Program-made: the position numbers and the translations under genes
Notes under the pieces: model-generated
Databases searched by the model: none
What the model was told of the DNA's origin: nothing
Seen by the model: the letters and a program-made list of their open reading frames with translations, nothing else
In this document: positions 1 through 14,870 of the stretch, piece by piece
How the letters are laid out: each line of letters opens with the position of its first letter
How positions within the stretch are numbered: the stretch's first letter is position 1
Virus record (IMG/VR): IMGVR_UViG_3300030105_002190
Coordinates: 1 to 22,256 of that record
Source of the DNA: a virus
Direction: 5' to 3' (one strand)
Length of the DNA: 22,256 nt

Positions 1-413
1 ATGTACTTGTCTTCTACAAATCTAATAAAATGATGTTGGTCTAAATATTCATTACCTTGTTGTCTTTTATAATCTATTTCAAATAAGAATTCAAGCCCAT
101 GTACTTTACCTATGTTAGCACCATCTGACCAGGAATTTTCAGTACCATCGTAAAATGTTTGTGCTTTGTTTTCATATCCAAATCTAGCGATTTTACGTAT
201 ACCAAGAGATAAATTATAGTCGTACGGAGTTTTTACTGTCGATGTTTCTAAACCGTTTGTAACAGAGAAAACATCCACATCAGAAACAGAAGTACCACCA
301 TTAGCCGCTGCATAAAACGTAGAGAACTTAAAAGTCTTTTTCAAATAATCATTAAATTGTGCGTTAGAAATTATTGCTATACACATTAGCGGCACCAGTA
401 TTAGTTTTTTCAT
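1..413 (-). CDS. Secreted, possibly outer-membrane phage protein, 3' part missing
   Basis: The frame begins with ATG at 413 and runs off the left edge after 137 codons, so the C-terminal part is missing. It starts one base after the stop of the giant gene (TAA-T-ATG), which supports this start. The N-terminus MKKLILVPLMCIAIISNAQ is a textbook signal peptide of Bacteroidetes type: two lysines, a hydrophobic core and cleavage near Ala-Gln. The mature part (FNDYLKKTFKFSTFYAAANG, then a stretch containing DYNLSLGIRKIARFGYEN) alternates polar and hydrophobic residues and is rich in aromatic residues, which suits beta strands of a small barrel or periplasmic protein. I do not recognise a characterised family. 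Its place at the end of a virion operon is odd for an exported protein. It may alter the envelope of the infected cell, for example to block superinfection, but that is inference. Confidence 0.8.
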   Translation of the reverse strand, partial: MKKLILVPLMCIAIISNAQFNDYLKKTFKFSTFYAAANGGTSVSDVDVFSVTNGLETSTVKTPYDYNLSLGIRKIARFGYENKAQTFYDGTENSWSDGANIGKVHGLEFLFEIDYKRQQGNEYLDQHHFIRFVEDKY

Positions 414-414
414 A

Positions 415-3400
415 TTATCTTGTTTTTCTTGTTTTTCTTGTTTTTCTTTTTTTCTTTTGGCCTTTTGATTTAGTACTTTCTTTTATAGCATCCATCTTTT
501 TGTTTTCAAGATCAAGGTTATATTGACTCCAACCTAAAAACAATAAAGTTCTTTCCCAAGCAGCGTGCTCATTGCTTAAACCTTGCCTTACGTTTTGTGT
601 TTTATTATACAACCTGTTCAGTGGTGCGTTAGTAAAAGCCTCTATATAGTTTGTTACCGCCGACCATTGAGGGTTGTCAATATCAAAAGTTTCCATTTCT
701 TTTATAACTTTTTTGTTATAATTAAGGGTTTTTTCAGCGTTTGATATTTTTCTAGCTTTAATACCTACTACAGGTGAAAAGTTTAAAGCTTCTATTAAAA
801 CAGCACCCTCATCAGGGTTGTAATCAACATCTCTTTGCCTAGCAAAAGCAATAGCAACATTTTTTAAAGTAGCGACAACAGCGCCAATTATACCACTACC
901 TCTTAACACAGAGTCAATACTACCATTTATTAATCTTTCTTTTTTCTTTAAAAATAAATTATTGTTATCTTCTTCGTCATCATCAAACATCATAGCAAAC
1001 AAAGCTGTTTGTAAAGTATAGAATATTAAATTTTGCACAGCAAAATAATATGTTATTCTAGAAGCGTTAGATATATCACTTTGTAATTGAGTTGTGTTAG
1101 GTTTTGTTATTCTTCTATTTTTTATATCTAAAAAAGCTTTTTTACCTAACCTGTTAAACTGAGACGTAACATTTTGAAAGTTTAATATAATTTTACCAAT
1201 TACAGAAGCTTGTTGCTGTGAAACCATATCAGGTCTTGCAGACTGTTGTGTTGACTGTGTTATGTCTTGAAAATCTGTAAATGCTTTTGCCTCTGCTTCT
1301 TTTTGACTTAAACCTTGTTTTAAATAAGTATTAATTCTATTTCTATAAAAAGTAGCACCACCTGTTGCTATTGCGATATTATCACCAATTTGCGTAGGTA
1401 AAAAACCTAGCTCTAATAATTTAGATATTAAAAACCTACTAGGATTTTTAGACTTACGCATGTCAGCTGCAAGTTCAGCGCCATTAACATCTGTCTGTAT
1501 ACCACCTCTTCTTTGCTTAAGCATGTCTGAGTTAAATATAAAAGCCCAATCAGTCCAGTATTGTTTTTGATTTGCAAAAGCTTTAGCCGCAGCAAATATA
1601 TTATTGTCAGCAAAGTTAATGTAATTAACTATAGACATTTGCTGTAACAAAGCAGATCTTATATTGATAAACATAACAGCTCCAACAGAGCCATTAACCC
1701 AATTCATAAGCGCGTTTACCATTGCGTTTTGGCCAGACGGTCGGTTTGTACCGGTTTTAATTCTATAAAGCATATCTTCTAAAGCTTCTCTAACACCTTT
1801 ACCGTAACCAGCTTCTATTTTGTTTAAATTTTCTGTAGAAAATATTATGTCAGCATTTTCAATAAATTCTTTAAAAAACTGTGCTCTACCAATCCTACCT
1901 GTAGCATCATCTAAATCCATACGAATATCTCCAGAATCCCAACCTTCTGTAGGGTTAACATAATTGTCCTGTTTTGATATAACGTTTAAAACCTCTGCGT
2001 AAGCCTTTAAGTCAGCATCATTTTCAACTAAATCACTTAACTTTACTTGGTCTGTTGGAGTTAACCCAGGTATTTTATAACCATGTTTATTCCATAAATA
2101 TACTCTTATAGCATCTTGATATGTAAAATCACCATCTGGAGTTTTCTTTGTAAGTTTCTTTTTAACATCTTTAAACTGTTTGTTTAACGCTTTAAAATCG
2201 TTAGCAACTGATTGTCTTGCTGTATCATATTCTTTATTAGCTCTATTTAATGGTCTAACCAAAGCTTGTTCAAAAAAGTCTCTATGAGCATTACCTTTTT
2301 TACCTTTACCTATAAAGTTGTACAACAATCCTACAAAATCTTCGTGAGATGGTGGTACAAAAAACCTAAACTTACCTTTACTAGCTCCACGTTTTCTAGC
2401 TTTAATAGCTGAAAATCTTTTTTCAGACTCAATACCAATAACGTTTTCTAGTATATCATTAAATTGATCGTTTATTGATTTACTAAACTGAATTTTTGCT
2501 TGTTGAACTTTTGATTTAACATCAAATTGCTCTAACATATTTTTTACAGCTTGAACGTTTTGTAAAGCATCATCAGCAAAATAAAAATCATTATAACCCT
2601 CACTTACTTTATCAGCCATCCAAAGCGCTTTAGCTTCTGCTGTAGAGTTTGCTAAACCAGTAATATTTTTTATAGGTATATTTAAACCATTAGCTTTTAA
2701 AAAGTCGTGTATTGCTTTAGCCGCTTGTGGTGGTCTTGCTGTTAATACAAACATATTCTCTGGTCCAAACTTACCTTGTAATTTTAAAGCTTTTTGAAAC
2801 AATGGTGCTAACTTACCTTTTACAACTTTATTAAACTCAGAAAAATCAAATGTATATCCTTGTCCTAATAAATCTTGATATGTATTTGCAAATTCTTCAG
2901 CATTTAATGTTCCAATAACACCATCAGGCGTTGTATATTTAACTAAAGATTTAGTTGTAGCCAATGTGTCATCAAAATCTAACACCGTAATACCTTTAGC
3001 CGGATTTACCGTCCTAGAACCGCTTATGGCATTGTTAAGTTTTTTTACCTTTTTAACGTTTTTATTATACTTAACTTTTTTAATTTGTTGTATTTCTTTT
3101 TTAGTTACATCTCCAGTTAAAAAATCTACAATTAATTCGTTTTGTCTAGTAATATCGTTTAAACCAGTTTCAGGGTCTTTAATACCATCAACGCCAAAAT
3201 ATTGTGCAATAGTCATTTTAACTCCAGCTAAAGAATACGCGTTTGGATCAATACCAGCAATAGCAAGTCTTACAAGAGAAGCATATCCATTTGGTATGTT
3301 TAAATCACCACTTATTAATCTAGGAACAACTTTATCGTAATAAACGTCGGGCATACTTTTTTCTAACCCCGCGGCTAAAAGCATGTCATTATGAACTTCT

Positions 3401-6400
3401 AACAATGCTCCTTGCATATAAGATTTACCAACAACCTGCCAAACTGTATCAAGATTTCCATTAAAAGCCCCTAACAATAAAGCTTTACCAATTAAATTCT
3501 GAGGATCTGTATGTTCTTCAGTAATTTTTTGATTAACAATAGCGTTGTTATTTGCGTTTACAGGATAAAAACTAAAAGGAGCTAAAATTCTAGTAAAAGT
3601 ATTTTGATGTTTACTAGTATCTAAAAGTATTTCTGCAAACATCCAAAGGTCATTTTTTGCTTCAGGAGACTTGTTTAAATGAATCTCTATGCCTTTAAAG
3701 ATATCAAAAAGTATTCCAAGTTTTTTATTTTCACTTAAACTATCATAATCCTTTAAGTAATTTTTATCAAAACCACCTCTATTAGGATCACCTTTCTTTT
3801 TATTTGTATATGAATCTCTTTTACCAACTTGCTCAACGTCTGTTTTTGGAAACAATTGATCAAAGTATTTAACATCTAAAAAGAAACCTCCAGATGAGTT
3901 GTTACCGCCAGTAGTAGTGCTTCTTATTAAACTTCTAAATTCTGGATTTTGATTAAGAAAAGTTTGTATAACTCTAATACCACCTTCTTCTATGGTTTCT
4001 CCAGTTTTTTTACCGTTAATAACCAAATCTTGTTTCAAATCTCTTGATCTAAAAGTTTTGCTTCCTTCACTATCTGTTCTACCGTCTGGGTATAAAATAT
4101 CAGTTTTTTTAGCTAACTCAACGTTTATAAGCTTTGCAATAGCTTCTATAGGTAATTCATAATAATTTTTAAGAGTAGTTTTACTAAAAGCAATTTTACT
4201 TTGCCCAGCTGTAATGTCAGCTGTTTGTTGTTTTAAAGCTTGTTTCTTTTCTACAGGTGCAGCTTCTGTTTTAGCTTGTAAACCTCTTTGAGCACCAGAT
4301 AAAGCCACACCAATTGAAAGTGTTTTTGCAGCGCCTTTTAATAACTGACCAATATCTCTGCTATACACATTTGGCTGAAGTTTAGGTGTTATACCTAAAT
4401 CTTGTTTAAACTTTTCAATAGTTTCAGGCGTTGGATTTCTAAACTCTGATTTTAATATTTTTACGTCTGGTTGAGTTGTTAGACCTAAACTTCTACCACT
4501 AGGAGATGTTTCAGCTTCTTTTTTAATTTTAGCTTCTTTGCTAATGGCTTTTGGATCAACATAATCTTCGTAAAAATAATCCATTATTAAACCTTTTAAA
4601 CCAATAGCTCTACCGTAAACATCTCTTGATACGTCTATATTTTCACCAACTTTATTTATATCAGCTGTTTTTCTAGCAACGTTTAGTAATGGTAATGTTT
4701 TAATAAACTTACTAGTATTTTCTCCTGCACTAAAAACTCTTTGTATACTTTGAGCTTCAGCGGGTATTGGCATACCTTCTTCATATACTGTAACAGCAGT
4801 TAAATTAGCACCACCCTCCATAATTTTTTTAACAGGTATATCAAATATAAGTTCTCCAACTTTACCAGCATATTTTTCTATCACTTGTTTAAAAGTATCA
4901 CCTTCTTTTACTTTTACTAAAGACTTTATTTTATTTGCAATCTTAGACACAATAGCAAAATCAGTAAGCATGTTTATTTTTTGTACAAAAGTATCTTGTG
5001 TGTTTGTTTTATCGTTTACATCACCAGCAAGATCTCTTACACTAGGATCATCAAGTTTAACACCGTCACGTATTGCAAGTATTTTAGCCTCTTCAAATAT
5101 AGTGTCGTTTTTAGGAGCTATGTTATTGTAAACATGAGTTGAAAACTTACCTTTTTTAGGATCATAATTTTTTAATATACTTGGGAAATAAACAGAAATA
5201 GCAGATATAACATTTTTTCTAGGTATATCACCTTTTTCTTCACTGTATTTTAAAGCATCTATAGATAAGGCTTCATATTGATTTATAAGTTCTTTTTCAG
5301 CTTCATCAATACTTTTTCTAGAACCTCTCTTCTTCTTTACTATTTTAGCTAACTCTTCTGGAGTTTTTTTAGAAGGTGTTTTAGAGGTTTGTATTTTACC
5401 TTCTGTTTTTCTTTTTAAACTTCTTTTGCCAAAATCAATAATACTTTTTCTTAACTTACCAGCAACTCTATCGCTGTCGTATGCTTTTAAAAAGTTATAC
5501 AAAGCTCTACCATCCTCAAATTCTAAATTTACAAAACCTTTTGGTTTAAAAAAGTTTTTAAATAAATTTATTAATTTTCTAAATAAACTTTCTTCAAACT
5601 TAATAGCTGGCTGGCCTTCAGATGGGTTTAAAGCATCAACAAAAACATTTATATATTCTTCAGCGTACTCTTCTAATTCTTTTTCACTACCATCTTCATT
5701 GTATCTATACGCATCGTCTATCCTTTCTTGAATAATTTTAAATTGAGAATTTTCTTTAATAATCTCAATAAATTGCTTAACAAGTTTTAAACCGTCTTTA
5801 GTAATATTAACCTCAACATCTTTATTATTGGAATCTTTTATTGTTCTTAAAGGACCATTAAGTGTTGACCACATTATACCATGTAATAGTTCATGCGCAC
5901 CAACATTAACAGCTTCTGTGGTTTTTGCAACTTCCTTATTAATATAAAATATTTTTGTATTTGGATCAAAAAACCCGTCCATGCCCTTAGTACCTTTAAT
6001 ACCAAGTTTTTTCATTAAAGCATCAAACTTTTTTTCTGTCTTTATAACCTTAGTATCTCCACCAATTTCTTTACCATACTTTTCAACAAAAGCAATTGAT
6101 TTTTGAAGTTTAGCATCAGTGTCTTTTAACCTTAATTCTTTTTTGTCTTTAAACGTAGATTTGGCAACTGTCTTTGGAACTAAAAATCCTTTTTCACCAA
6201 ATTTATAATTAGCTCTTTTTAATTCAAAATACTTTAAAGCGTCTTTTAGTTGTTGTATTTTTTTAGGATCTTTCTTTTCGTTTAACTCTTCTTTTCTTAA
6301 CTCTTGCTCGATATCAAATTGTGATCTGTTATTTATAAAATCAACTATTCTCATCGCCTTAGCGTTACTCATAACAACTCTACTTTGAGATTCTTTTGGA

Positions 6401-9400
6401 GCATATTTACCCATGATTTTATAAGCTTCTTTTTCTATATTAAAATTATTTTTAACTTTAATATTTAATTGTTTACCTTTTTTAAAATCACCATTATTTT
6501 TATGTGCTCTAATTCTTTTTAAAAACTCTTCTTTTGTATTGTAAGTTTTACCATCAATAGAATACTCAGGAGTTAGTAACATTTCCTGATCATATTGTTT
6601 TGTTAATTTAATTAATTCTTTTTTAAGTTCTTGTTTTTTCTTATCACCTATTTCTTTATTTTTAAGATCTTGTTTTATTTTTTTAATTTTTCTATCAATT
6701 TTCCAAATACTTCTTAAACTATTATCAAATTCAATAGTATTTTTCATGTTACCTATTTGAGAGTTTACGTTATCAAGCTCTTTTTGGTATTCTTCAGACA
6801 GGTTTGTATCTGTTTCATCCATTTTTGCTTGAATAGCATTTCTTTGAGTTATTAGTTTAATCAACTCGTCTGCTCTCTCCTCTGTAACTTTAACACTACC
6901 ATCTTCATTAAACAACAAGTCATCAATATCACCACTTATTAATATATAATTATCAAGTCTTTTTTTTATGTCTTCATATTTTTCAATAGCCAAATCCCCA
7001 GTAGAAAGTTGATTATCCATTTCTTCTATAAATGCGTCATAATTTTCACTAGCAACTCTTAAAACACCGCTTTGATCTGTTTTAGTTAAATTCCCACTTA
7101 AACCTCTCATTGCTAAAACCGATAAAGATGTAAGTACAAAAGTTTCTTTTATCTCATTATACTCTGGTAGTTTAAAATCTGTTTGAAAAGTATTATTATA
7201 AGACATGTCTATAGCTCCCTTGGAAAACAATTGTAAATATTCTTCTAATAATTCTTTAGGGACATCTGCAAAAGCCGCTTTTAAAGCAATTAATCTTTCA
7301 TTTTCTAAAGTTTTTAATAATGATTTTGGATCTTTTAATCCTCTTTTAATACTACTTACACTTCTTTTAATCATTTTAAAATCAGGATTTACTACTTCTA
7401 TAGCCGCCTCTACAAATGTAGTTTTAATAGAATAATCCATAGCATCTTCTGCAGTAAAGTTTCCATCTATAGCAGCAAATGCTTGACTCATATTTTGTGG
7501 TAACAATACTGGTAAACTTCCAACACCAACACTGGAAAGACTAACTGATTTTTTATAAAAATCACTAGCCCCCTTTAAGTTCTTTGGTTGTACACCCATT
7601 TTTAACAAACCTTTTTTTGTTAAATTACCAACCCCAGTTAATGTTTTGTAAGAAACTCTACTACCTCTAGACATCATAAACATATCACCCACTGTTTTTA
7701 CAACACTAGGTAAAAGTTTAGATAAATTCCACTCCCCTGTTTCGGGATCTACAAACGATGTTGAAGACGTAGGAATATTTGGTAAATCAACTTCAATAGC
7801 CTTGTTAAACAGAAAAGCTTCGGTATGATATCTTTCTTTATTTTCAGGATCTAAACCAGCCATAAGATTTGCTTTCGCAGTCGCAAGAACAGTCGCGGTT
7901 CCACCAAAAAAATCAACAACAGTATTTACCGCTGTTGGAACAGACTCTGTAACACCTCCAAGCCCCCACTTTTCATACCACTCATCAGTTGCTTTTTGAT
8001 CTTCAAATTTTTCATTTAATTTTTTACCAAATTCAGTTTTATCAAGAAATTTCATTTGTAAAGTTTTATTAAAAGATGCCTCATCTGATAACTTAAAATA
8101 ACCATCTAAAAGTTTTCTTGTGTGTGGACTTAATACTATATTAGCAGATTTAAGTAAGCTTTCATAGTTTTTATCAAGATTTAAAACATCTATTCTTAGA
8201 TCATTAAAAGTATTAACATTATCTTTGTTTTGCTCTAAGCTTCCGTTATTAAACTTGCTATACATCTCTTCAAGTTCTTTTATTTTAGTATCTCTTTCTT
8301 GTATTAAAACCTTTGTATCGTTTTCAAATAAGTTTAAATCATCAACAAGTTCTGGTATTCCATTTTTTTTGTATATATCTAAATCATTATTAAATTTACT
8401 ATGTTTGTAATTTATATAAGCACTAATTACATTAGATTTAAACCTTTGTTCATACGCTGGTTCTTCACCTTCTTTTTCATATCTTCTTTTTCTTCCACCT
8501 AAACTATGCTTTTTAACAAGTTTCTCTTTTTCTCTATAATGTTCAGCTTCATTACTTCCAAGATACCAAATTGCAAATCTTGCAGCTTCATCACCGCTTA
8601 AGTCTTCTCCAAATAAGGTTTTTAAATCATCATGAGACATACCAGCAAGTGACCACGCGTCATCCACGCCTGTCATTGAGTAAACTTCCCCATCATCCCC
8701 AATGTATTTTTTAGGATCTAGCTCAACTTCTTTTAACTTTTCTGGATCTATTATATTGCTTGGGATAAAATCAGTGTTGAATTCGTTTTTCCAAGTTTCG
8801 TAAGCTTTATTAACCGCGGATCTTTCTTTTTTTTTCCTCGCGCGGATATCCCTATCCCATCTTTCATTAACTTTTGTTTGATCTCCAACAGGCGTCATGT
8901 TAAGCACCATTCCAACCGCGTTCTTAGCTATACTAAAAGCATCCGTAACGTCTTGCCACTCTATGTCACCCTTGAAAGTAAGAGCGGTATAACCTATTGG
9001 GGTTGGTGTCATTTTCACTTTATCCCATACAACATCCATAAAACCTTCAGGATCTTTTCCAGCTTCAGGGTTTGCGGTTTTCCATTGTTCAAGAGTTACT
9101 TGCTGTCTTTCTTCATTTTTAATTTTTTGTTGCGCTAAAAAATCTTCATACGACAAACTTTCATCTACATCTTTAGTTAGCGGATCGTCAACTTTTTCTG
9201 AAGAAGAATACTTATTGGTTTCAAACTCAGGGAATTTACTATTTATAATACGCCAATCTCCACCATGTTTAGGATCATTTGCTGTCAAAACATATTCTTG
9301 CAATACAAACGGATCTATATCAGCTAATTCAGGAAATTTACTATTTATAACAGAGTAATCTCCGTTATATTCAGGGTCATTTGCTGTTAGTACATATTCT

Positions 9401-9426
9401 TGTAATACAAATTCTAATTCTTCCAT
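415..9426 (-). CDS. Giant polyvalent virion/ejection protein (3003 aa)
   Basis: This one uninterrupted frame fills about 40% of the window. It starts three bases after the upstream stop (TAA-AAT-ATG). Visible parts in order: a duplicated 28-residue motif (6-33 and 40-67); weakly hydrophobic segments near 505-530; a Lys/Glu-rich, probably coiled-coil stretch around 900-945; an HELLH zinc-peptidase-like motif at 1178-1182; a segment with NYDPKKGKFSTHVYNNI near 1422, faintly like sigma-factor helices; an Ala-rich hydrophobic segment at 1698-1734; an EHTDP motif at 1971-1975; a HAD phosphatase domain at about 2140-2310; a long helical C-terminal region with hydrophobic segments near 2790-2812 and 2840-2860 flanking an acidic DDDEED run; and a basic KTR tail. 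It follows two smaller ejection-type genes, the place of T7 gp16, so it is probably carried in the capsid and ejected with the DNA. A tape-measure role is unlikely, because the sequence is multidomain with enzyme motifs. Its enzymatic role is not proven. Confidence 0.85.
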   Translation of the reverse strand: MEELEFVLQEYVLTANDPEYNGDYSVINSKFPELADIDPFVLQEYVLTANDPKHGGDWRIINSKFPEFETNKYSSSEKVDDPLTKDVDESLSYEDFLAQQKIKNEERQQVTLEQWKTANPEAGKDPEGFMDVVWDKVKMTPTPIGYTALTFKGDIEWQDVTDAFSIAKNAVGMVLNMTPVGDQTKVNERWDRDIRARKKKERSAVNKAYETWKNEFNTDFIPSNIIDPEKLKEVELDPKKYIGDDGEVYSMTGVDDAWSLAGMSHDDLKTLFGEDLSGDEAARFAIWYLGSNEAEHYREKEKLVKKHSLGGRKRRYEKEGEEPAYEQRFKSNVISAYINYKHSKFNNDLDIYKKNGIPELVDDLNLFENDTKVLIQERDTKIKELEEMYSKFNNGSLEQNKDNVNTFNDLRIDVLNLDKNYESLLKSANIVLSPHTRKLLDGYFKLSDEASFNKTLQMKFLDKTEFGKKLNEKFEDQKATDEWYEKWGLGGVTESVPTAVNTVVDFFGGTATVLATAKANLMAGLDPENKERYHTEAFLFNKAIEVDLPNIPTSSTSFVDPETGEWNLSKLLPSVVKTVGDMFMMSRGSRVSYKTLTGVGNLTKKGLLKMGVQPKNLKGASDFYKKSVSLSSVGVGSLPVLLPQNMSQAFAAIDGNFTAEDAMDYSIKTTFVEAAIEVVNPDFKMIKRSVSSIKRGLKDPKSLLKTLENERLIALKAAFADVPKELLEEYLQLFSKGAIDMSYNNTFQTDFKLPEYNEIKETFVLTSLSVLAMRGLSGNLTKTDQSGVLRVASENYDAFIEEMDNQLSTGDLAIEKYEDIKKRLDNYILISGDIDDLLFNEDGSVKVTEERADELIKLITQRNAIQAKMDETDTNLSEEYQKELDNVNSQIGNMKNTIEFDNSLRSIWKIDRKIKKIKQDLKNKEIGDKKKQELKKELIKLTKQYDQEMLLTPEYSIDGKTYNTKEEFLKRIRAHKNNGDFKKGKQLNIKVKNNFNIEKEAYKIMGKYAPKESQSRVVMSNAKAMRIVDFINNRSQFDIEQELRKEELNEKKDPKKIQQLKDALKYFELKRANYKFGEKGFLVPKTVAKSTFKDKKELRLKDTDAKLQKSIAFVEKYGKEIGGDTKVIKTEKKFDALMKKLGIKGTKGMDGFFDPNTKIFYINKEVAKTTEAVNVGAHELLHGIMWSTLNGPLRTIKDSNNKDVEVNITKDGLKLVKQFIEIIKENSQFKIIQERIDDAYRYNEDGSEKELEEYAEEYINVFVDALNPSEGQPAIKFEESLFRKLINLFKNFFKPKGFVNLEFEDGRALYNFLKAYDSDRVAGKLRKSIIDFGKRSLKRKTEGKIQTSKTPSKKTPEELAKIVKKKRGSRKSIDEAEKELINQYEALSIDALKYSEEKGDIPRKNVISAISVYFPSILKNYDPKKGKFSTHVYNNIAPKNDTIFEEAKILAIRDGVKLDDPSVRDLAGDVNDKTNTQDTFVQKINMLTDFAIVSKIANKIKSLVKVKEGDTFKQVIEKYAGKVGELIFDIPVKKIMEGGANLTAVTVYEEGMPIPAEAQSIQRVFSAGENTSKFIKTLPLLNVARKTADINKVGENIDVSRDVYGRAIGLKGLIMDYFYEDYVDPKAISKEAKIKKEAETSPSGRSLGLTTQPDVKILKSEFRNPTPETIEKFKQDLGITPKLQPNVYSRDIGQLLKGAAKTLSIGVALSGAQRGLQAKTEAAPVEKKQALKQQTADITAGQSKIAFSKTTLKNYYELPIEAIAKLINVELAKKTDILYPDGRTDSEGSKTFRSRDLKQDLVINGKKTGETIEEGGIRVIQTFLNQNPEFRSLIRSTTTGGNNSSGGFFLDVKYFDQLFPKTDVEQVGKRDSYTNKKKGDPNRGGFDKNYLKDYDSLSENKKLGILFDIFKGIEIHLNKSPEAKNDLWMFAEILLDTSKHQNTFTRILAPFSFYPVNANNNAIVNQKITEEHTDPQNLIGKALLLGAFNGNLDTVWQVVGKSYMQGALLEVHNDMLLAAGLEKSMPDVYYDKVVPRLISGDLNIPNGYASLVRLAIAGIDPNAYSLAGVKMTIAQYFGVDGIKDPETGLNDITRQNELIVDFLTGDVTKKEIQQIKKVKYNKNVKKVKKLNNAISGSRTVNPAKGITVLDFDDTLATTKSLVKYTTPDGVIGTLNAEEFANTYQDLLGQGYTFDFSEFNKVVKGKLAPLFQKALKLQGKFGPENMFVLTARPPQAAKAIHDFLKANGLNIPIKNITGLANSTAEAKALWMADKVSEGYNDFYFADDALQNVQAVKNMLEQFDVKSKVQQAKIQFSKSINDQFNDILENVIGIESEKRFSAIKARKRGASKGKFRFFVPPSHEDFVGLLYNFIGKGKKGNAHRDFFEQALVRPLNRANKEYDTARQSVANDFKALNKQFKDVKKKLTKKTPDGDFTYQDAIRVYLWNKHGYKIPGLTPTDQVKLSDLVENDADLKAYAEVLNVISKQDNYVNPTEGWDSGDIRMDLDDATGRIGRAQFFKEFIENADIIFSTENLNKIEAGYGKGVREALEDMLYRIKTGTNRPSGQNAMVNALMNWVNGSVGAVMFINIRSALLQQMSIVNYINFADNNIFAAAKAFANQKQYWTDWAFIFNSDMLKQRRGGIQTDVNGAELAADMRKSKNPSRFLISKLLELGFLPTQIGDNIAIATGGATFYRNRINTYLKQGLSQKEAEAKAFTDFQDITQSTQQSARPDMVSQQQASVIGKIILNFQNVTSQFNRLGKKAFLDIKNRRITKPNTTQLQSDISNASRITYYFAVQNLIFYTLQTALFAMMFDDDEEDNNNLFLKKKERLINGSIDSVLRGSGIIGAVVATLKNVAIAFARQRDVDYNPDEGAVLIEALNFSPVVGIKARKISNAEKTLNYNKKVIKEMETFDIDNPQWSAVTNYIEAFTNAPLNRLYNKTQNVRQGLSNEHAAWERTLLFLGWSQYNLDLENKKMDAIKESTKSKGQKKKRKTRKTRKTR
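418..444 (-). repeat. 9-bp tandem repeat coding Lys-Thr-Arg x3
   Basis: Three exact copies of tcttgtttt (plus strand) immediately precede the stop codon of the giant gene. They encode a C-terminal KTRKTRKTR tail after a KKKR stretch. The repeat keeps the frame, so slippage would add or remove whole KTR units. The very basic tail could bind DNA or a negatively charged partner during packaging or ejection (inference). Confidence 0.85.
2497..3009 (-). other. HAD-superfamily phosphatase domain inside the giant protein
   Basis: Residues about 2140-2310 carry the full HAD motif set. Motif I is LDFDDTLA, with nucleophile D2150 and acid/base D2152. Motif II is FVLTARPP, with T2229. A motif III lysine sits in STAEAKALWM (K2266). 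Motif IV is FYFADDALQN, with metal-binding D2285 and D2286. A cap-like insertion of about 70 residues separates motifs I and II. Known HAD enzymes with this layout are mostly phosphatases, including nucleotidases and polynucleotide 3'-phosphatases. The substrate here cannot be told from the sequence. Because every catalytic residue is kept, an active enzyme is likely. Confidence 0.85.
5881..5895 (-). other. HELLH zinc-metallopeptidase-like motif in the giant protein
   Basis: Residues 1178-1182 read HELLH within VGAHELLHGIMW, the HExxH metal-binding and catalytic signature in a helix of typical hydrophobic pattern. About 75 residues downstream an acidic helix (ELEEYAEEYINVF) could provide a third glutamate ligand, as in gluzincins. 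The region just before the motif (FDPNTKIFYINKEV) resembles the edge strand that precedes the active-site helix in many such enzymes. The motif is short and can occur by chance, so the peptidase call is moderate. Cell-wall cleavage and self-processing are both possible roles. Confidence 0.55.
9226..9411 (-). repeat. Tandem duplication at the N-terminus of the giant protein
   Basis: Residues 6-33 and 40-67 are near copies. Both contain FVLQEYVLTANDP, then a Gly-Asp pair followed by Tyr or Trp, then INSKFPE. The spacing is 34 residues (102 nt). The unit looks like a short helix plus loop. It may serve as a docking or packaging tag at the free N-terminus (inference). The copies are at 9328-9411 and 9226-9309. 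Confidence 0.9.
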
Positions 9427-9429
9427 ATT

Positions 9430-10824
9430 TTATTTTCTAACCTTAGGAATTTTTGTAGCAGCTTCTATTTCTATAACACGTGACATAGGGATAAATCTAT
9501 TAGCATTCCAATTCTTTTGAGTACTATATTCTCTTTTACCAAATATTGCTTGCCATTGTTTTTTGTCTGAAGATAAATCACCATCTTTTTTATCTTTCAC
9601 AAAATCTTCATAAGAATCATATCTTAAATACATCGGTTCACTATTTTTTGGTGACTTTAATTTAGCATAATAACCTGAAGATCCTTGAAAGTTTTTTGTT
9701 TTGTTTTGCAGATGGTTATAAACTGCCGCCGCTTTAGTAGGGTCAATTTGTTTTTCTGTACCAGGATTATCAGGATCTGGGGCATATGAATAACCAAAAT
9801 AACCATCCGGCGGGTCGCCTGGAGGAGGAGTATCATCACCTTCTTTTTTTCTAGCATTTACACCTTCAGTAAATTTAGAATTACCATATCCTTCTGTAAA
9901 CCATCTAGAAACTATTTCTTTTCCACTTTCTAAATTATCACTATTTGGATTTACTATAGTATCATATAATTTTTGTTTATCTTGATTTCCTAAAATACCT
10001 AATAAATTTTTATCATCATTACTTGTATCTGTATCAAGTAAAGTTGATAAAGCTTTTTTAAAACTAATACCAGTGAGGGTTTCGTCTTCTATTATATTTA
10101 AATAAGAACTTTTGTCAGGCATTAACTTATTTATACTGGCTTGAAAAATGTCTTTTTCATCCTGCCACTTATTTTTGTTTTTTGCAGTTGAATTTCTTAA
10201 ACCCACCCCAATTTTACCTATTCCATTGACAGAGGTAGCATCTTTTAAATGAAGTTCTTTAAACAAATCTGTAACTTTTTGTGTTTCTCCATTAATAGTA
10301 GCGTTTAATTTGTTATTCTCATCCCAGCTAAAACTAACGTCATCATACTCACCATCTACATCCCATATTTTACCAAAAGCACTATAAAACTTATCATCTT
10401 CATTAATAATTAAATCTTTACCAATATATGCTTCCCCAAACTTTGTAAAACCAGCAGCTAAACCATTGATTTCAGCAGCCACTTGTTGAATTTTAAACTT
10501 TATTTTATCTTCTTTTTCTTTATCACCGTAGGCAGCGTTAAATTCTTTTTGAAGTTCTTTAAATCTAGTTACATTAGCAGGGTGCATACCACCTAATTGC
10601 TCACTTCCAGAAGCTAATTGTCTCATCATAACCTCTACAGGTTCAGCAATATTATCCCAAGCTTTTTGCTTTTCTTCATTCTTTTTCTGAAATATTTTGA
10701 CCATACCAGCCGACATAGCTAGCGGTATAGCTGCTTGACTTTCGTAAAACTTAGTCTTGTCTACACCTACTTTTGATTGCGCTTCTTTTAATGAAGCTTG
10801 TATTAAGCCTTGATCTGCTGCCAT
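9430..10824 (-). CDS. Ejection/cargo-like internal virion protein (464 aa)
   Basis: The protein is hydrophilic and mostly helical in appearance. It has an Ala/Gln/Lys-rich N-terminus (MAADQGLIQASLKEAQSKVG), a possible short hydrophobic helix at 30-45 (AAIPLAMSAGMVKIF), and long charged helices at 45-130. A Pro/Gly-rich linker near 330-350 (TPPPGDPPDGYFGYSYAPD) precedes a C-terminal domain. It has no signal peptide and no catalytic motif that I recognise. It sits between the Gln/Ala-rich 232-aa protein and the giant protein, the place of T7 gp15, so a role as second ejected core protein is likely from order alone. The start ATG lies 19 nt after the upstream stop, in the A-rich context CAATAAAAC-ATG without a Shine-Dalgarno. 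It ends three nt before the giant gene. Confidence 0.75.
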   Translation of the reverse strand: MAADQGLIQASLKEAQSKVGVDKTKFYESQAAIPLAMSAGMVKIFQKKNEEKQKAWDNIAEPVEVMMRQLASGSEQLGGMHPANVTRFKELQKEFNAAYGDKEKEDKIKFKIQQVAAEINGLAAGFTKFGEAYIGKDLIINEDDKFYSAFGKIWDVDGEYDDVSFSWDENNKLNATINGETQKVTDLFKELHLKDATSVNGIGKIGVGLRNSTAKNKNKWQDEKDIFQASINKLMPDKSSYLNIIEDETLTGISFKKALSTLLDTDTSNDDKNLLGILGNQDKQKLYDTIVNPNSDNLESGKEIVSRWFTEGYGNSKFTEGVNARKKEGDDTPPPGDPPDGYFGYSYAPDPDNPGTEKQIDPTKAAAVYNHLQNKTKNFQGSSGYYAKLKSPKNSEPMYLRYDSYEDFVKDKKDGDLSSDKKQWQAIFGKREYSTQKNWNANRFIPMSRVIEIEAATKIPKVRK

Positions 10825-10843
10825 GTTTTATTGTTTTATATTT

Positions 10844-11542
10844 TTATCTTCCTTTACCATCATTATACCACCAATCATCAGAGCCACCCGGTGGAGTAGT
10901 GCCTCCAGTTGGGAAGCTTGTACTAGCTGCTGTTGTAGCTAAATTACCCCAAGCTGCTGCATTTGCTGTTGCCGCTGATGTACGAGCGCCGTATAAATTC
11001 TTTTGCATTTGAGCGTAGTTTTGATTAGCTCCAGTTGCTTGACCAAACTGTATGCCTAATAAAGTTGATTGTCTATCAACATTCATTCCTTGTAACAACT
11101 CTTCACCACGTTGAACTTGTTGTTGGCCTTGAGCTGCTGCTCTTTGATTAGCCGCTTCTTGCACACCTATACTAGCTGATATTTGCTGTGTTTGTAACTG
11201 TCCTTGATTCGCTAGAGATTGGGCTAATCCAGCTATACCGCTACTTCCAGCAGCGCCTCTAAGACCTTGCATTATATTTGCTCTTTGCTGAGAACCTTGT
11301 TGAGCTTGGAATTGTGCTTGTTGTTGGTTTACTGTTAAATCTTCAAAAACATTTTCAGCATAAGGATTTTTAAAATCTTGAGCTCTATACTTATCCATTT
11401 CTTCAGTTAGTAATTGCTGTTGTTTTTGTCTATCTTCAAAAGCTTTTTGAGACTCGGCTCTAGCCGCGGATATATTTCTTCTACCAGCCTTAGCAGTTTG
11501 TATACTACCTATAGCAGAAACAGCGAGTGGTACCCACCACAT
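10844..11542 (-). CDS. Gln/Ala-rich ejection protein, T7 gp14-like in position (232 aa)
   Basis: The N-terminus MWWVPLAVSAIGSIQTAKAG is hydrophobic and could insert in a membrane. It is followed by long helices very rich in Gln and Ala (residues 30-165, with QQQ and QGQ runs), then a low-complexity tail with GGTTPPGG and WWYNDGKGR. This composition and size are typical of the smallest podoviral ejection proteins (T7 gp14, P22 gp7-like), which help form a channel through the host envelope. Homology cannot be proved by eye. The start overlaps the stop of an eight-codon frame (TAATG) in the preceding 66-nt gap. It is the first gene of the three-gene ejection cassette. Confidence 0.75.
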   Translation of the reverse strand: MWWVPLAVSAIGSIQTAKAGRRNISAARAESQKAFEDRQKQQQLLTEEMDKYRAQDFKNPYAENVFEDLTVNQQQAQFQAQQGSQQRANIMQGLRGAAGSSGIAGLAQSLANQGQLQTQQISASIGVQEAANQRAAAQGQQQVQRGEELLQGMNVDRQSTLLGIQFGQATGANQNYAQMQKNLYGARTSAATANAAAWGNLATTAASTSFPTGGTTPPGGSDDWWYNDGKGR

Positions 11543-11608
11543 TAGTTTTTTATGTTTTTTACATTCATAATATATTCTTTATCTATTTATAATTACAGTT
11601 TTTATGTA
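11543..11608 (-). other. 66-nt intergenic gap with an 8-codon leader-like frame
   Basis: This is the longest gap between genes in the window. It separates the tail genes from the ejection cassette. It is very AT-rich and shows no hairpin followed by T residues, no Bacteroidetes-style TANNTTTG box and no clear -35/-10 pair. It contains ATG at 11568 followed by seven codons (peptide MNVKNIKN). The TAA of this frame overlaps the ATG of the 232-aa gene as TAATG. This could be a translational coupler or chance in AT-rich DNA. A phage-specific promoter or processing site cannot be excluded. Confidence 0.4.
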
Positions 11609-11983
11609 TTATTTACTACTTTTGTTTATTTCAGAGTTAACTGCGAAGAGTTCTACTTTTTCTGTTGAATCATTTTCTAATCTTACCTCTGCAAAATAAC
11701 CTTTTACATCACCTAAATTGGCAACATCATTTTTTGAAAACATAATAAAAGTATTTGTATTAATTGGTATCGATGGAACTTGATTAACAATATGATATTT
11801 ACTAACCTTTAATATGTGCGCTCTATATTGGTGGCTTATAAACTCAACAGTACCTAGCTTTTCAACATATTCTTTTGGTGCTATATTAAAACCACCAGAA
11901 CTTTGTGTTTTAGTATACCAAATAGTATCCCCTACTTGTAGTGAGCTATTGAAAGGTTTATCAAATGTTAATGTTATTTCCAT
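11609..11983 (-). CDS. Small virion-associated protein of unknown function (124 aa)
   Basis: The protein begins MEITLTFDKPFNSSLQVGD and appears to be a compact beta-rich domain, with alternating strands through GDTIWYT, LGTVEFISH and YHIVNQVPSIP. A strand segment KGYFAEVRLENDS precedes a tail of KVELFAVNSEINKSSK. It has no signal peptide, membrane segment or catalytic motif. It starts one base after the 431-aa gene stop (TAA-C-ATG), so the two are probably translated together and may act together, for example as a minor tail or decoration component. I do not recognise the family. Confidence 0.7.
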   Translation of the reverse strand: MEITLTFDKPFNSSLQVGDTIWYTKTQSSGGFNIAPKEYVEKLGTVEFISHQYRAHILKVSKYHIVNQVPSIPINTNTFIMFSKNDVANLGDVKGYFAEVRLENDSTEKVELFAVNSEINKSSK

Positions 11984-11984
11984 G

Positions 11985-13280
11985 TTATGATACTGTTAAA
12001 ATATTATCTAATTCTAATGTTAATGTTAAATTGTCTTTACCATATCCTTGAATTTCAACATCACCGGTTACTGTTGCCGCTCTACTACTACCAGTAAAAA
12101 CAACTGTTTGGCCGTTTTCTATTGTTTGTGCAGCACTTACTACAACCGAAACACCAGCGTTTACAGTGTCTACATGCGGAGACGCTGCTGTAACGCCTAC
12201 ACCTGTCATTAAAACAGTGTCAACGTCTCTTATACCATTAGTACTAGTAATTGGTATTGTTGTACTGTTAGATACAACCGCGTCTGTAGTTGTTGTTACG
12301 GGGTTTATAACTACTTTTAAGTTTGAAATTGTAAATTTAGTAGAGTTAAATTCACTAGCTCCACTAAACCCATAACCCGTAAATGTTAAAGTTCTATCAG
12401 CAACAAAAGTAGAACTAGCACTAATAACCACCGTTCCACCAACACTGTCAATCATTGTTAAACCATCGCTACTTAACGCTTTTGGAATAACATAAACATG
12501 ATTTGCTGCTGTAGATTTATTTTCATCTTTATAACCTTTTATAATTTTAGTTATTGTAGCTCCACTTGCTATACCCGTACCGCTAACACCCATACCTATA
12601 CTTAAACCTTCAATATTTTTTAATTCAAGATAAGTACTTGTACCAGCTGTTAACGTATCTTTTGTAGTTGTAAAATAAAAATCATCAATTACCGGTTGTC
12701 GCGCTATTATAAAATCATTATCATTTAAAGCAAGAGCCCAAGATATTGAAAAAGAATTGTTAAATTTTTTCTTACTTACAGTAGAACTTAAACCTGTAGA
12801 AGTGTAATTACTTGGGTATGTACCATAAGATTCATCCCCAGCGTCTTGCAAAGTAGAACTTAAAGAAAAAGTTAAAGTAGTATCTACAATTTGTTCTATT
12901 TTTGAAGTATAATAAACCATATTTGAAGACATTTCTTTTACAAAACTAGTATTTGAATCTGCGTCTGCTTCTAAAATTACTGAATATTCATCATCATCAG
13001 TAACTGTTGGAAAACTTATAACACCATTATAAACTCCAGATTTGTCTATTGTTTTTTGTGATAATTTATTTGCAGTCGAAGAAAAGCTTCCAGACGGTTT
13101 AACAGTGCTTTCTTCTTCACTAACAATAGTATTTTCAGGAAAATTATAAAAATGACCATCTTCATTTAATACAATCATACTAAAAACAGCGCCAGGGTCT
13201 GCATTAATAGTATACTCTCTAGTTGTTTTAAAACCAGGCATTGGATTTCCGTTTATAGCAAATGCTTTTATTAATTTCAT
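11985..13280 (-). CDS. Beta-rich tail/virion structural protein (431 aa)
   Basis: The protein is Ser/Thr/Val/Gly-rich and strand-rich throughout, with no signal peptide. It begins MKLIKAFAINGNPMPGFKTT, like the opening of an Ig-like or tail-appendage domain. Two related modules follow. The first, at about 208-305, contains GMGVSGTGIASGATITKI and later VVISASSTFVADRTLTFTG. The second, at about 332-402, contains DTVLMTGVGVTAA and VVVSAAQTIENGQTVVFTG. The same GM-V-G-GI pattern occurs in the 506-aa tail protein. It lies between the fibre-like gene and the 124-aa gene, 3 nt after the former (TAA-AAT-ATG). A role as tail appendage or decoration protein is plausible; there is no sign of an enzyme. 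Confidence 0.7.
   Translation of the reverse strand: MKLIKAFAINGNPMPGFKTTREYTINADPGAVFSMIVLNEDGHFYNFPENTIVSEEESTVKPSGSFSSTANKLSQKTIDKSGVYNGVISFPTVTDDDEYSVILEADADSNTSFVKEMSSNMVYYTSKIEQIVDTTLTFSLSSTLQDAGDESYGTYPSNYTSTGLSSTVSKKKFNNSFSISWALALNDNDFIIARQPVIDDFYFTTTKDTLTAGTSTYLELKNIEGLSIGMGVSGTGIASGATITKIIKGYKDENKSTAANHVYVIPKALSSDGLTMIDSVGGTVVISASSTFVADRTLTFTGYGFSGASEFNSTKFTISNLKVVINPVTTTTDAVVSNSTTIPITSTNGIRDVDTVLMTGVGVTAASPHVDTVNAGVSVVVSAAQTIENGQTVVFTGSSRAATVTGDVEIQGYGKDNLTLTLELDNILTVS
12075..12285 (-). repeat. GMxVxGxGI-type module, copy 2 of the 431-aa protein
   Basis: The module runs from IPITSTNGIRDVDTVLMTG to VVVSAAQTIENGQTVVFTG. The final strand pair aligns residue by residue with copy 1 (SA at the start, TxxFTG at the end). 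The GM-V core is changed to VLMTGVGV, so this copy has drifted more. Confidence 0.55.
12366..12658 (-). repeat. GMxVxGxGI module, copy 1 of the 431-aa protein
   Basis: The module starts near LELKNIEGLSIGMGVSGTGI and ends with VVISASSTFVADRTLTFTG. Its first half matches the module in the 506-aa protein, and its last strand pair matches copy 2 at 12075-12285. It is a short beta module, probably stabilising or solvent-facing. Function unknown. Confidence 0.65.
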
Positions 13281-13283
13281 ATT

Positions 13284-14870
13284 TTATATAATATTTGGAT
13301 CTACCCAGCTAAGATCTCCCTGGTTTTCTGTATTATGATAAAGATTTATAGGTATACTAAACACTGTGCCACTTTGTGGAGTGGGCATTATAAAGTTTAA
13401 GTCAACTGTTACTTTAAGTTTTTCAGGAAACCACTCAAATTGCTCGTAAAATGGACTGGTTTGATACATTTCTAAAACAGTTACTGAATTAGTTATAGTA
13501 ATCCCATTATCATCATCAAAATTATTAAAATTAACAATTTGAGTTGGTCGTAATCCAGTTGGATCTGCGCCATTATGCCATTCAGAATACACTGGACTAT
13601 AATTAACGTAATTAGGATCTATATACATAGGACTTTCCCAAGTACCAGTAAAAGGTTGTTGTATTCTTAAACTAGCCGCTGTTAAATTATTTTTAGTATT
13701 ACCCCAGCCGTAATACATTCTTTGTGAATAACCAGGTGTTGGAGAAATATTACCATTAGGTCCTTGTAGTGACCCTGCAAAGGGATAATTATAAACATTA
13801 AATCCTCCATAACCTAATGATGGATATATAAAAAACTCTTCAGTATGTTGTACTGAAACTCCGGCTTGATATGTGCCTGGTAGTGTAATAGTTTGTGATA
13901 CAGTACCACTACCAAGCTGTATGTTTCCATTAGGATTTGCGGTTTCATCAAAATCAATTGTTATATACGTCATACCATTACTATGCGTGTACATAGAACC
14001 ATCTGTATAAGGTCCTGATGAACCTCCATAATAATCAACATTAGCAACTAATTCAACAGTATATTCAGGCGGTGGATATTGACAAAGAGTAGGATCAGAT
14101 ACAGTTGCGTTTGGATTATAAGTACCGTTTATAGCGGTAGGATCAGTACAACCAACAATTGTATCAGAACAATCAAAATCAATAGCAATAGTTTCATTTC
14201 TTTGCATTGGTGTACTAGGATCATAAACAATAAACACATAAGCATCTATACGTATTGGTTTGCCAGAATAATGAAAACCAGGACTTGGTAAATAACTTAC
14301 ACCATCCCACACTTGCCACTCCCATGAGTTGTCTTTTAATAACTCACCATTTTCCATGCTATCATTGATTAAGGTTTGAAATCCTTCGAGTTGATAAACT
14401 TCAACTAAATTTATCTCACTCCAAGTTACAGGTACGTTGTCACTTAAAAAAGCGCCATTAGTATAATCTGTATTAAGAAATCTAATTGGTCCTTGAACAG
14501 AACGACGACTAAAACTAGTACTAATACCACCACCACAACTTGATGGCAGATGATAACTATGACTTCTAGTAAAAGAACAATTAATACCGTGTGGTGTTGT
14601 TGGTGGTACACAATTTGAATTTGGATTATGAGTATGCCTCCATTGATAATATCCATTAGTATTGTTACTTCCAGGTATTTTAAAATTTTGAGCAAAAGGC
14701 ATACGATGATAACCTGAATGTGGTGCTATTAAATTAAGATGTTTTGGTGTTATTGCAATTTTATAATACGGTTTTCCGCTTGCTGTGTACAAAATTGGAG
14801 AACTATTTCCAGAATCGTCTACAACTATTTCTACTGTATATAAGTTATTAGGATTGTTTGTAACACTCAT
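13284..14870 (-). CDS. Probable tail fibre/tip protein with duplicated domains (528 aa)
   Basis: The protein is rich in Asn, Tyr, Pro and Gly, as in extracellular fibre and tip proteins, with no signal peptide. It has two related halves: residues about 10-235 start YTVEIVVDD, and about 269-515 start YTVELVANV. Each ends with a strand pair after VEVYQ or LEMYQ and then IRIDAYVFIVYDPSTP or LKVTVDLNFIMPTPQ. A degenerate GCTDP repeat (240-265) joins them. Half one also has a His-rich loop (GYHRMPFAQ, WRHTHN, HSYH) and extra Cys residues, which might bind metal. The gene lies 11 nt after the nozzle-like gene, the usual place for fibre or host-contact proteins, so receptor binding is a reasonable but unproved guess. 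The start ATG follows AATATATAAA. Confidence 0.7.
   Translation of the reverse strand: MSVTNNPNNLYTVEIVVDDSGNSSPILYTASGKPYYKIAITPKHLNLIAPHSGYHRMPFAQNFKIPGSNNTNGYYQWRHTHNPNSNCVPPTTPHGINCSFTRSHSYHLPSSCGGGISTSFSRRSVQGPIRFLNTDYTNGAFLSDNVPVTWSEINLVEVYQLEGFQTLINDSMENGELLKDNSWEWQVWDGVSYLPSPGFHYSGKPIRIDAYVFIVYDPSTPMQRNETIAIDFDCSDTIVGCTDPTAINGTYNPNATVSDPTLCQYPPPEYTVELVANVDYYGGSSGPYTDGSMYTHSNGMTYITIDFDETANPNGNIQLGSGTVSQTITLPGTYQAGVSVQHTEEFFIYPSLGYGGFNVYNYPFAGSLQGPNGNISPTPGYSQRMYYGWGNTKNNLTAASLRIQQPFTGTWESPMYIDPNYVNYSPVYSEWHNGADPTGLRPTQIVNFNNFDDDNGITITNSVTVLEMYQTSPFYEQFEWFPEKLKVTVDLNFIMPTPQSGTVFSIPINLYHNTENQGDLSWVDPNII
14076..14153 (-). repeat. Degenerate GCTDP repeat linking two halves of the 528-aa protein
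   Basis: Residues 240-265 read GCTDPTAINGTYNP, then NATVSDPTLCQY. This matches the 23-residue unit of the neighbouring 1731-aa protein, but with a three-residue insertion and with DDGSC changed to DPTLC. Both cysteines are kept, so a disulfide-closed loop is still possible. It is followed by a Pro-rich hinge (PPPEY). Confidence 0.8.

Follow-up and report, generated by a model that had tools for sequence, protein, structure and literature searches.

The gene that opens the analysed DNA, positions 1-22256 of a virus record of 29,036 bases (hereafter the window), is predicted from the modelled structure of its full-length relatives to be the start of a gene for an outer-membrane beta-barrel protein. 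Export of this protein through Sec and its insertion into the outer membrane can be assumed with great confidence, and it is also very likely that the gene belongs to a cassette encoding exported proteins. The best explanation, which is offered tentatively and may be right, is that the cassette barrel is the outer-membrane partner of a large repeat protein encoded nearby, that the two jointly remodel the surface of the infected cell and that the barrel is not part of the virion.

The barrel ORF runs from position 413 to position 3 on the minus strand and comprises the N-terminal 137 codons of the gene, as established from the ORF call, the relatives, the dN/dS ratio and the structure of full-length relatives. 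Window base 1 is also the end of the contig, which leaves the ORF open at its 3' end and the 3' part of the gene missing. The preliminary description had pointed to a tight coupling with a giant virion protein gene, and indeed a single base (414) lies between the start of the barrel gene and the stop of a 3003-aa ORF (415-9426, minus strand). The product of the latter, judged by the ORF and by gene order in the relatives, is a presumed ejected virion protein. A search for homologues at this locus in related phages was also proposed there, and such homologues exist: where relatives share the gene order, the barrel is preceded by a giant-type protein of 2000-3300 aa. The minus strand upstream of the barrel gene also carries the end of the terminase gene, the portal gene and other virion structural genes. 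Besides the 137 barrel residues the window contains none of the cassette partners described below.

The giant 3003-aa protein contains a metalloprotease-like HELLH (HExxH) motif at residue 1178 (window 5881-5895, minus strand) and a HAD-like DFDDT motif at residue 2150 (window 2965-2979, minus strand), together with a weak match to a polynucleotide-kinase PHROG (E 0.0027). Its N-terminus begins with a tandem repeat, FVLQEYVLTANDP being found at residue 6 and again at residue 40 (window 9271-9411, minus strand). At or just past the other end of the window, a 283-aa protein (L002:5247-6098, record positions ~22246-23097) has ambiguous bases, translated as X, near its C-terminus, and the window seems to end at a scaffold gap.

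The barrel protein starts with a predicted Sec signal peptide, MKKLILVPLMCIAIISNAQ (357-413, minus strand), recognized from its sequence and from the comparison of signal types in the family; it is of type I in the window gene (MKKLILVPLMCIAIISNA|Q) and takes a lipoprotein form in many relatives. Of all long regions of the family, the N-terminus is conserved least, with a mean majority frequency of 0.50 versus 0.66-0.89 in the strands, but it stays a Sec-type signal throughout the family despite this low conservation. The signal alternates between cleaved type I forms ending in ...TAQ or ...SNAQ and a lipobox form ending in ...LVACAAPKKCCSQ. With signal types assigned by pattern and by eye, without a dedicated predictor such as SignalP, at least 21 changes of type were counted by parsimony on a tree of the mature part, at least nine of them on strongly supported branches. 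Since the Sec signal is retained while its sequence and type switch, selection appears to keep export and not one particular N-terminal sequence, and the earlier proposal of an exported protein is borne out.

Lipobox-type signals of the barrel (e.g. L004:10001) and of the repeat protein of one locus (L048:11815) carry, immediately behind the lipobox cysteine, the unusual motif C-x-x-(P/T)-K-K-C-C-(S/G)-Q. The KKCCSQ motif was considered as a possible counterpart of the cysteine pair in SprF and was dropped, as type I members, including the window gene, do not have it. Signal-peptide-like starts ending in ...AQ or ...SQ were also noticed in two cultured members of Pachyviridae, namely in the annotated virion structural protein gp084 (6865-8286 of L170) and the pectate lyases gp086 (8530-10863) and gp087 (10868-12844) of phi13:2 (L170), and in the hypothetical protein gp081 (24012-24860 of L171) of Gundel_1.

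The barrel is widespread among marine viruses. With the window fragment as the query, 162 stretches that code for a relative were recovered from viral contigs, and a divergent member as the second query gave 101; relatives are present on well over 100 marine viral contigs, and full-length members have 342-376 aa. The mature part of the window protein (118 residues) is 82-86 % identical to its near relatives, in comparison to which dN was ~0.08-0.12 and dS ~1.0-1.4, giving a dN/dS ratio of ~0.09. The mature barrel part is under strong purifying selection, and the ORF is a real gene, far beyond chance. Many charged and polar residues are invariant in the family. One locus (L065) carries two barrel genes, at 9998-11098 and 15732-16808, one in each of the alternative positions described below, and in another (L008, 9983-10845) the barrel is split into two ORFs by a frameshift or a sequencing error.

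Homologues in cultured phages were sought among 50,697 phage records, and tblastn gave no match with either the N-terminus or a full-length relative. An HMM search of the examined stretches of phi40:1, phi13:2, Gundel_1, elemo, Panino and MW202828 likewise gave no relative of the barrel, the sorting domain, the coiled-coil protein or the thioredoxin-like protein. No sequence family for the barrel was found in Pfam, NCBIfam or PDB, and matches in PHROGs reached only E 0.02-0.1. The viral protein A0A516LKJ4 (342 aa) is a distant structural match (TM 0.59) with 20-21 % identity and E-values of 4e-19 to 2e-21; it seems to be a remote member of the family and is the only such candidate among annotated viral outer-membrane proteins. 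When 84,980 prokaryote genomes were scanned with just two short patterns, three contigs (L086-L088), assigned to Nitrosopelagicus and Maricaulis MAGs, matched. A cellular origin was rejected because L087 and L088 show the phage order of giant gene followed by barrel; the matching contigs are read as viral sequences that were assigned to MAGs by mistake.

The host is almost certainly a marine member of Bacteroidota, to judge from the portal protein of the window, which is closest (26-53 % identity) to those of podoviruses of Flavobacterium, Cellulophaga, Maribacter and Tenacibaculum and of an environmental genome. A search of 30 related records, mostly fragments, revealed no phage-type integrase, and the phages look lytic. 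One of the contigs, IMGVR_UViG_3300030098_004828 (L145; 245,646 bases), contains two portal genes of ~920 aa each about 127 kb apart, which suggests a tandem or concatenated assembly of a phage genome of ~127 kb.

To model the fold, AlphaFold was given L013, a close relative of full length, in place of the truncated window protein, together with an alignment of 68 members. The model (mean pLDDT 76.7, pTM 0.71) contains 12 long strands, and the protein ends two residues past the last of them, in ...YDFKFGVNYVIF. The C-terminal residue of the 140 full-length members is F in 94, L in 23 and R in 23. The nearest solved folds are all 12-stranded outer-membrane barrels, namely Tsx, EstA, NalP, KdgM, NanC and OMPLA. 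The beta-barrel character proposed in the preliminary description thereby gained support from strand number, terminal residue and structural neighbours of the full-length relatives; many members also have a lipobox, and no homologue was found to be a proven virion protein. The match to Tsx reached Z 13.7-15.2 (rmsd 3.7 over 196 aligned residues at Z 13.7). The Z-scores of mutually unrelated 12-stranded barrels are nearly tied and the identities are ~10 %, therefore the matches give the outer-membrane location and the number of strands and not the function. A function deduced from the fold (Tsx, OMPLA) was rejected, as 12-stranded barrels all score alike. T9SS barrels are absent from the list of structural neighbours, which excludes nothing.

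Two regions outside the strands are well conserved. Residues ~182-256 form a large loop that is as conserved as the strands (0.76) and that, given a periplasmic N-terminus, would be extracellular in the model. Among the long segments outside the strands, the one with the highest conservation, approximately IARFGYENKAQTFYDGTENSWSDGANIGKVHGL, is encoded in the window at about 87-185 (minus strand) and was delimited by regional conservation and the AlphaFold model; it connects strands 2 and 3, has no ordered structure in the model (residues 80-105 with pLDDT below 50) and is placed there on the predicted periplasmic side.

The barrel gene occurs in the company of three further genes. In the order found in relatives of the window type the barrel comes behind the giant gene; then follow, in some cases after an SNase gene (PF00565), a coiled-coil gene, a thioredoxin-like gene and the repeat-protein gene, the last lying ~0.6-3.4 kb downstream of the barrel. 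In the other order the repeat-protein gene stands before the barrel, often directly. Gene order changed at least six times on the barrel tree. The preliminary description had set the barrel gene at the end of an operon, which has to be corrected, since in relatives with the window order it heads an exported cassette whose other genes lie downstream. The coiled-coil protein (~93 aa) has one TM helix and a coiled coil, an i-spanin-like layout, and searches of Pfam and PHROGs gave it no match to a spanin family. The thioredoxin-like protein (~107-120 aa) is exported and gives a sub-threshold match to PF00085; the CxxC motif is present in only one of 115 such proteins. The repeat protein is exported, has 600-1400 aa and contains many GCxDxxxxNYxP repeats.

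Among the 73 loci with 4.5 kb of flanking sequence on both sides, every one had the repeat-protein gene within 6 kb of the barrel gene and 70 had both the coiled-coil and the thioredoxin-like genes. Reverse searches led back to the barrel: it was found in 29 of 33 loci when starting from the thioredoxin-like gene, and in all 53 well-flanked loci, 50 of which also had the repeat protein, when starting from the coiled-coil gene; the forward and reverse scans share contigs and so are not independent samples. The genes for the repeat protein and the barrel are directly adjacent in 24 loci, overlapping by 1 or 4 nt in 23, and a YPNP-type sorting tail is present in nine of the 24. Two divergent barrels (L210 and L246) are not accompanied by a repeat protein and lie beside holin- and lysin-like genes, the order in L246 being lysin-like, coiled coil, thioredoxin-like, barrel and holin-like. 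Among 125 loci, 66 have holin-like genes within 7-8 kb of the barrel, and 88 have a lysin-like gene (M15, DUF5675 or a 205-aa type) at that distance.

Repeats of the type GC(T/M)DxxxxNY, the same type that fills the exported repeat protein of the relatives, are also found in the window, where five make up the C-terminal end of a 1731-aa virion protein and one is present in a 528-aa protein (jointly 14957-15340 and 14127-14153, minus strand). The module is common to virion and secreted proteins.

Several of the repeat proteins end in a recognizable sorting domain. The type A profile TIGR04183 scored 41.2, 38.4, 37.0 and 31.4 bits in the proteins of L116, L159, L004 and L057, respectively, at a cut-off of 23, and PF18962 was above its cut-off in these four and in L048; L004 falls in the window barrel's own clade. 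The repeat proteins tested match the type A profile or nothing, and none matched the type B profile TIGR04131. The repeat proteins of L052, L028, L123 and L098 end in a short tail that matched neither TIGR04183 nor PF18962 and showed no significant similarity to the type A domain. This short tail, ITDLLGRPxK...FYIYDDGTVEKKxIK, is present in 55 of the 80 repeat proteins whose tail was typed on the tree; it matched no T9SS profile where tested, and on its own its profile was not significantly similar to the type A tail. A T9SS role for it was not claimed, the tail-alone profile comparison having given a probability of 3.6 %, slightly above that of shuffled columns. A flanking domain is common to the short-tail and type A repeat proteins, and tail type changed at least eight times on the barrel tree. 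Repeat proteins with the sorting domain are expected to be carried to the surface by the host T9SS; for those with the short tail the same route is an inference from gene position and the shared body of the protein.

These arrangements resemble the porP/sprF-like genes, which commonly lie directly downstream of the genes for type B T9SS cargo and encode shuttles or anchors for it (PMC12618676, PMC9143113), being required for cargo secretion (PMC12618676) and for cargo anchorage (PMC9143113). In the best explanation, the phage-specific 12-stranded barrel would be made, presumably late, in a marine Bacteroidota (flavobacterial) host, exported by the host Sec system and inserted by the host BAM machinery without entering the virion. 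The coiled-coil partner would sit in the inner membrane by its one TM helix and extend the coiled coil into the periplasm, while the repeat protein, equipped in many members with the T9SS type A domain, would reach the cell surface through the host's T9SS. There the barrel could act as its outer-membrane anchor, receptor or shuttle, in function like SprF/PorP, so that both proteins would coat or remodel the surface of the infected cell before lysis. The most plausible use of such a coat would be to mask receptors against superinfecting phage or to keep the progeny from sticking to debris. A physical partnership of barrel and repeat protein is plausible, at a little under an even chance. Alteration of the surface by superinfection exclusion or receptor masking, as put forward in the preliminary description, is still the leading purpose, and remodelling against superinfection in particular is a possibility that we regard as rather doubtful. 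Equally doubtful is the broader notion that phages of marine Bacteroidota take over T9SS surface display of the host by means of an SprF-like barrel and cargo pair of independent origin.

Three observations weaken the partner reading. Type A cargo normally uses the PorV of the host and not a cognate barrel; tail types switch on the barrel tree, so that the barrel tracks no single sorting signal; and the divergent barrels of L210 and L246, found without a repeat protein, adjoin holin- and lysin-like genes. The many repeat proteins that end in the short tail also speak against it. Lysis genes are near in most loci, which makes an outer-membrane role at lysis the main rival. The barrel and the spanin-like one-TM coiled-coil protein would then breach or weaken the outer membrane, with the repeat protein as a passenger. 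The holin- and lysin-like neighbours counted above, the flanking of the L246 barrel by such genes, the absence of a repeat protein in L246 and L210, and the coiled-coil and thioredoxin-like genes, whose association with the barrel is as regular as that of the repeat protein, all agree with such a module. However, late genes neighbour each other in any phage, which makes proximity weak evidence; the tight overlap of 4 or 1 nt is with the repeat-protein gene and not with lysis genes, and the barrel, too, has no spanin match (Pfam). Moreover, we know of no 12-stranded barrel among the known spanins or disruptins. The lysis explanation is judged unlikely. A somewhat lower probability is given to a barrel acting alone in superinfection exclusion or as a receptor decoy, for instance by occluding a host receptor, without any need for the repeat protein. 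Barrels without a repeat protein do exist, the phages look lytic, and a precedent is offered by Llp of T5, the outer-membrane exclusion protein of a lytic phage (PMC9586334). The conserved loop 182-256, extracellular in the model, would be compatible with binding of a conserved partner, but receptor blockers are expected to diversify with the receptors of their hosts and this predicted loop is as conserved as the strands. Nor would a solitary blocker explain the near-invariable company of three other exported proteins.

An outer-membrane channel for nutrients or nucleosides, similar to Tsx or KdgM, or a barrel enzyme that modifies lipids, similar to OMPLA or LpxR, altering the permeability or the lipids of the infected cell, is improbable. 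The best structural neighbours are the nucleoside channel Tsx, KdgM, NanC and OMPLA, and the many invariant charged or polar residues would suit such an activity; against this stand the near-tied scores and low identities, and searches of Pfam, NCBIfam and PDB revealed no sequence relation of the barrel to Tsx, KdgM, NanC or OMPLA. Least probable of all, and very much so, is a virion component placed by way of the host export path, an option raised in the preliminary description. The gene does stand directly behind the virion operon, and the phi13:2 proteins gp084, gp086 and gp087 also have signal-peptide-like starts. On the other hand, the cultured relative phi40:1, the structural proteins of which were annotated by mass spectrometry, has no such gene in the stretch examined, and we know of no route by which an outer-membrane barrel would enter a capsid assembled in the cytoplasm. 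The preferred explanation remains the tentative partnership of barrel and repeat protein at the surface of the infected cell.

Most of the outer-membrane proteins known from phages belong to coliphages and prophages. No conserved cassette of barrel and T9SS cargo spanning marine podovirus-like lineages was found in the open-access literature searched, in which a single report of phage-encoded T9SS cargo was found. The paired barrel/T9SS-cargo cassette appears to be new, while precedents exist for outer-membrane proteins of phages and for T9SS cargo of phages taken singly. Its presence on well over 100 marine contigs from several podovirus-like lineages suggests that reworking of the infected-cell surface is routine in phages of Bacteroidota, one of the main bacterial phyla of the ocean. 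The cassette supplies concrete genes on which three steps that are poorly understood in Bacteroidota can be examined, namely superinfection exclusion, hijacking of the T9SS and breakdown of the outer membrane.

Among the known systems the closest in layout is PorP/SprF, represented by SprF-SprB of Flavobacterium johnsoniae. Like these proteins, the phage barrel is a Sec-exported outer-membrane barrel of Bacteroidota, and many of its genes lie directly downstream of, and overlap, a large repeat-protein gene able to carry a T9SS sorting domain. Unlike PorP/SprF, it is phage-borne, and the tail of its putative cargo is of type A or unassigned, not of type B. SprF of F. johnsoniae and its close homologues have a cysteine-containing periplasmic C-tail (PMC12635249), whereas the phage barrel stops at the last strand. 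No PF11751 match was found in 68 members (Pfam, E up to 1) and no NCBIfam PorP match at E up to 5, which leaves room for homology below the sensitivity of HMMER; a PF11751 control search gave no match in any control genome and was uninformative. With no profile match, no cysteine C-tail and no type B partner, the barrel falls outside PorP/SprF by these tests, and it may still work like one.

The outer-membrane lipoprotein Llp of T5 is a small periplasmic protein that blocks the receptor FhuA (PMC9586334). The statement in the preliminary description that a lytic phage has little need for an envelope protein was too strong in view of Llp and of the outer-membrane proteins annotated in many phages, e.g. 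E1A206 of Aeromonas phage phiAS5 and porins of uncultured Caudovirales. The barrel resembles Llp/Cor as an outer-membrane-directed protein of a lytic phage encoded beside virion genes and in the lipobox of many members. It is not an Llp/Cor lipoprotein, being a 12-stranded barrel of ~350 aa with a cassette of three partners and, in its window form, a type I signal. With the annotated phage outer-membrane proteins and porins it shares a viral gene and a barrel fold, but their sizes differ and the identity is 5-11 %.

Cryophage (Bellas et al. 2020) carries phage-borne T9SS type A cargo that was described as a unique occurrence (PMC7468147). In both cases phage-encoded proteins with type A sorting domains are expected to use the T9SS of the host. 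The cargo of Cryophage consists of an endoglucanase, a GH39 protein and a PA14 protein located among variable genes, whereas here it is a repeat protein that belongs, together with the barrel, to a conserved cassette present in several phage lineages.
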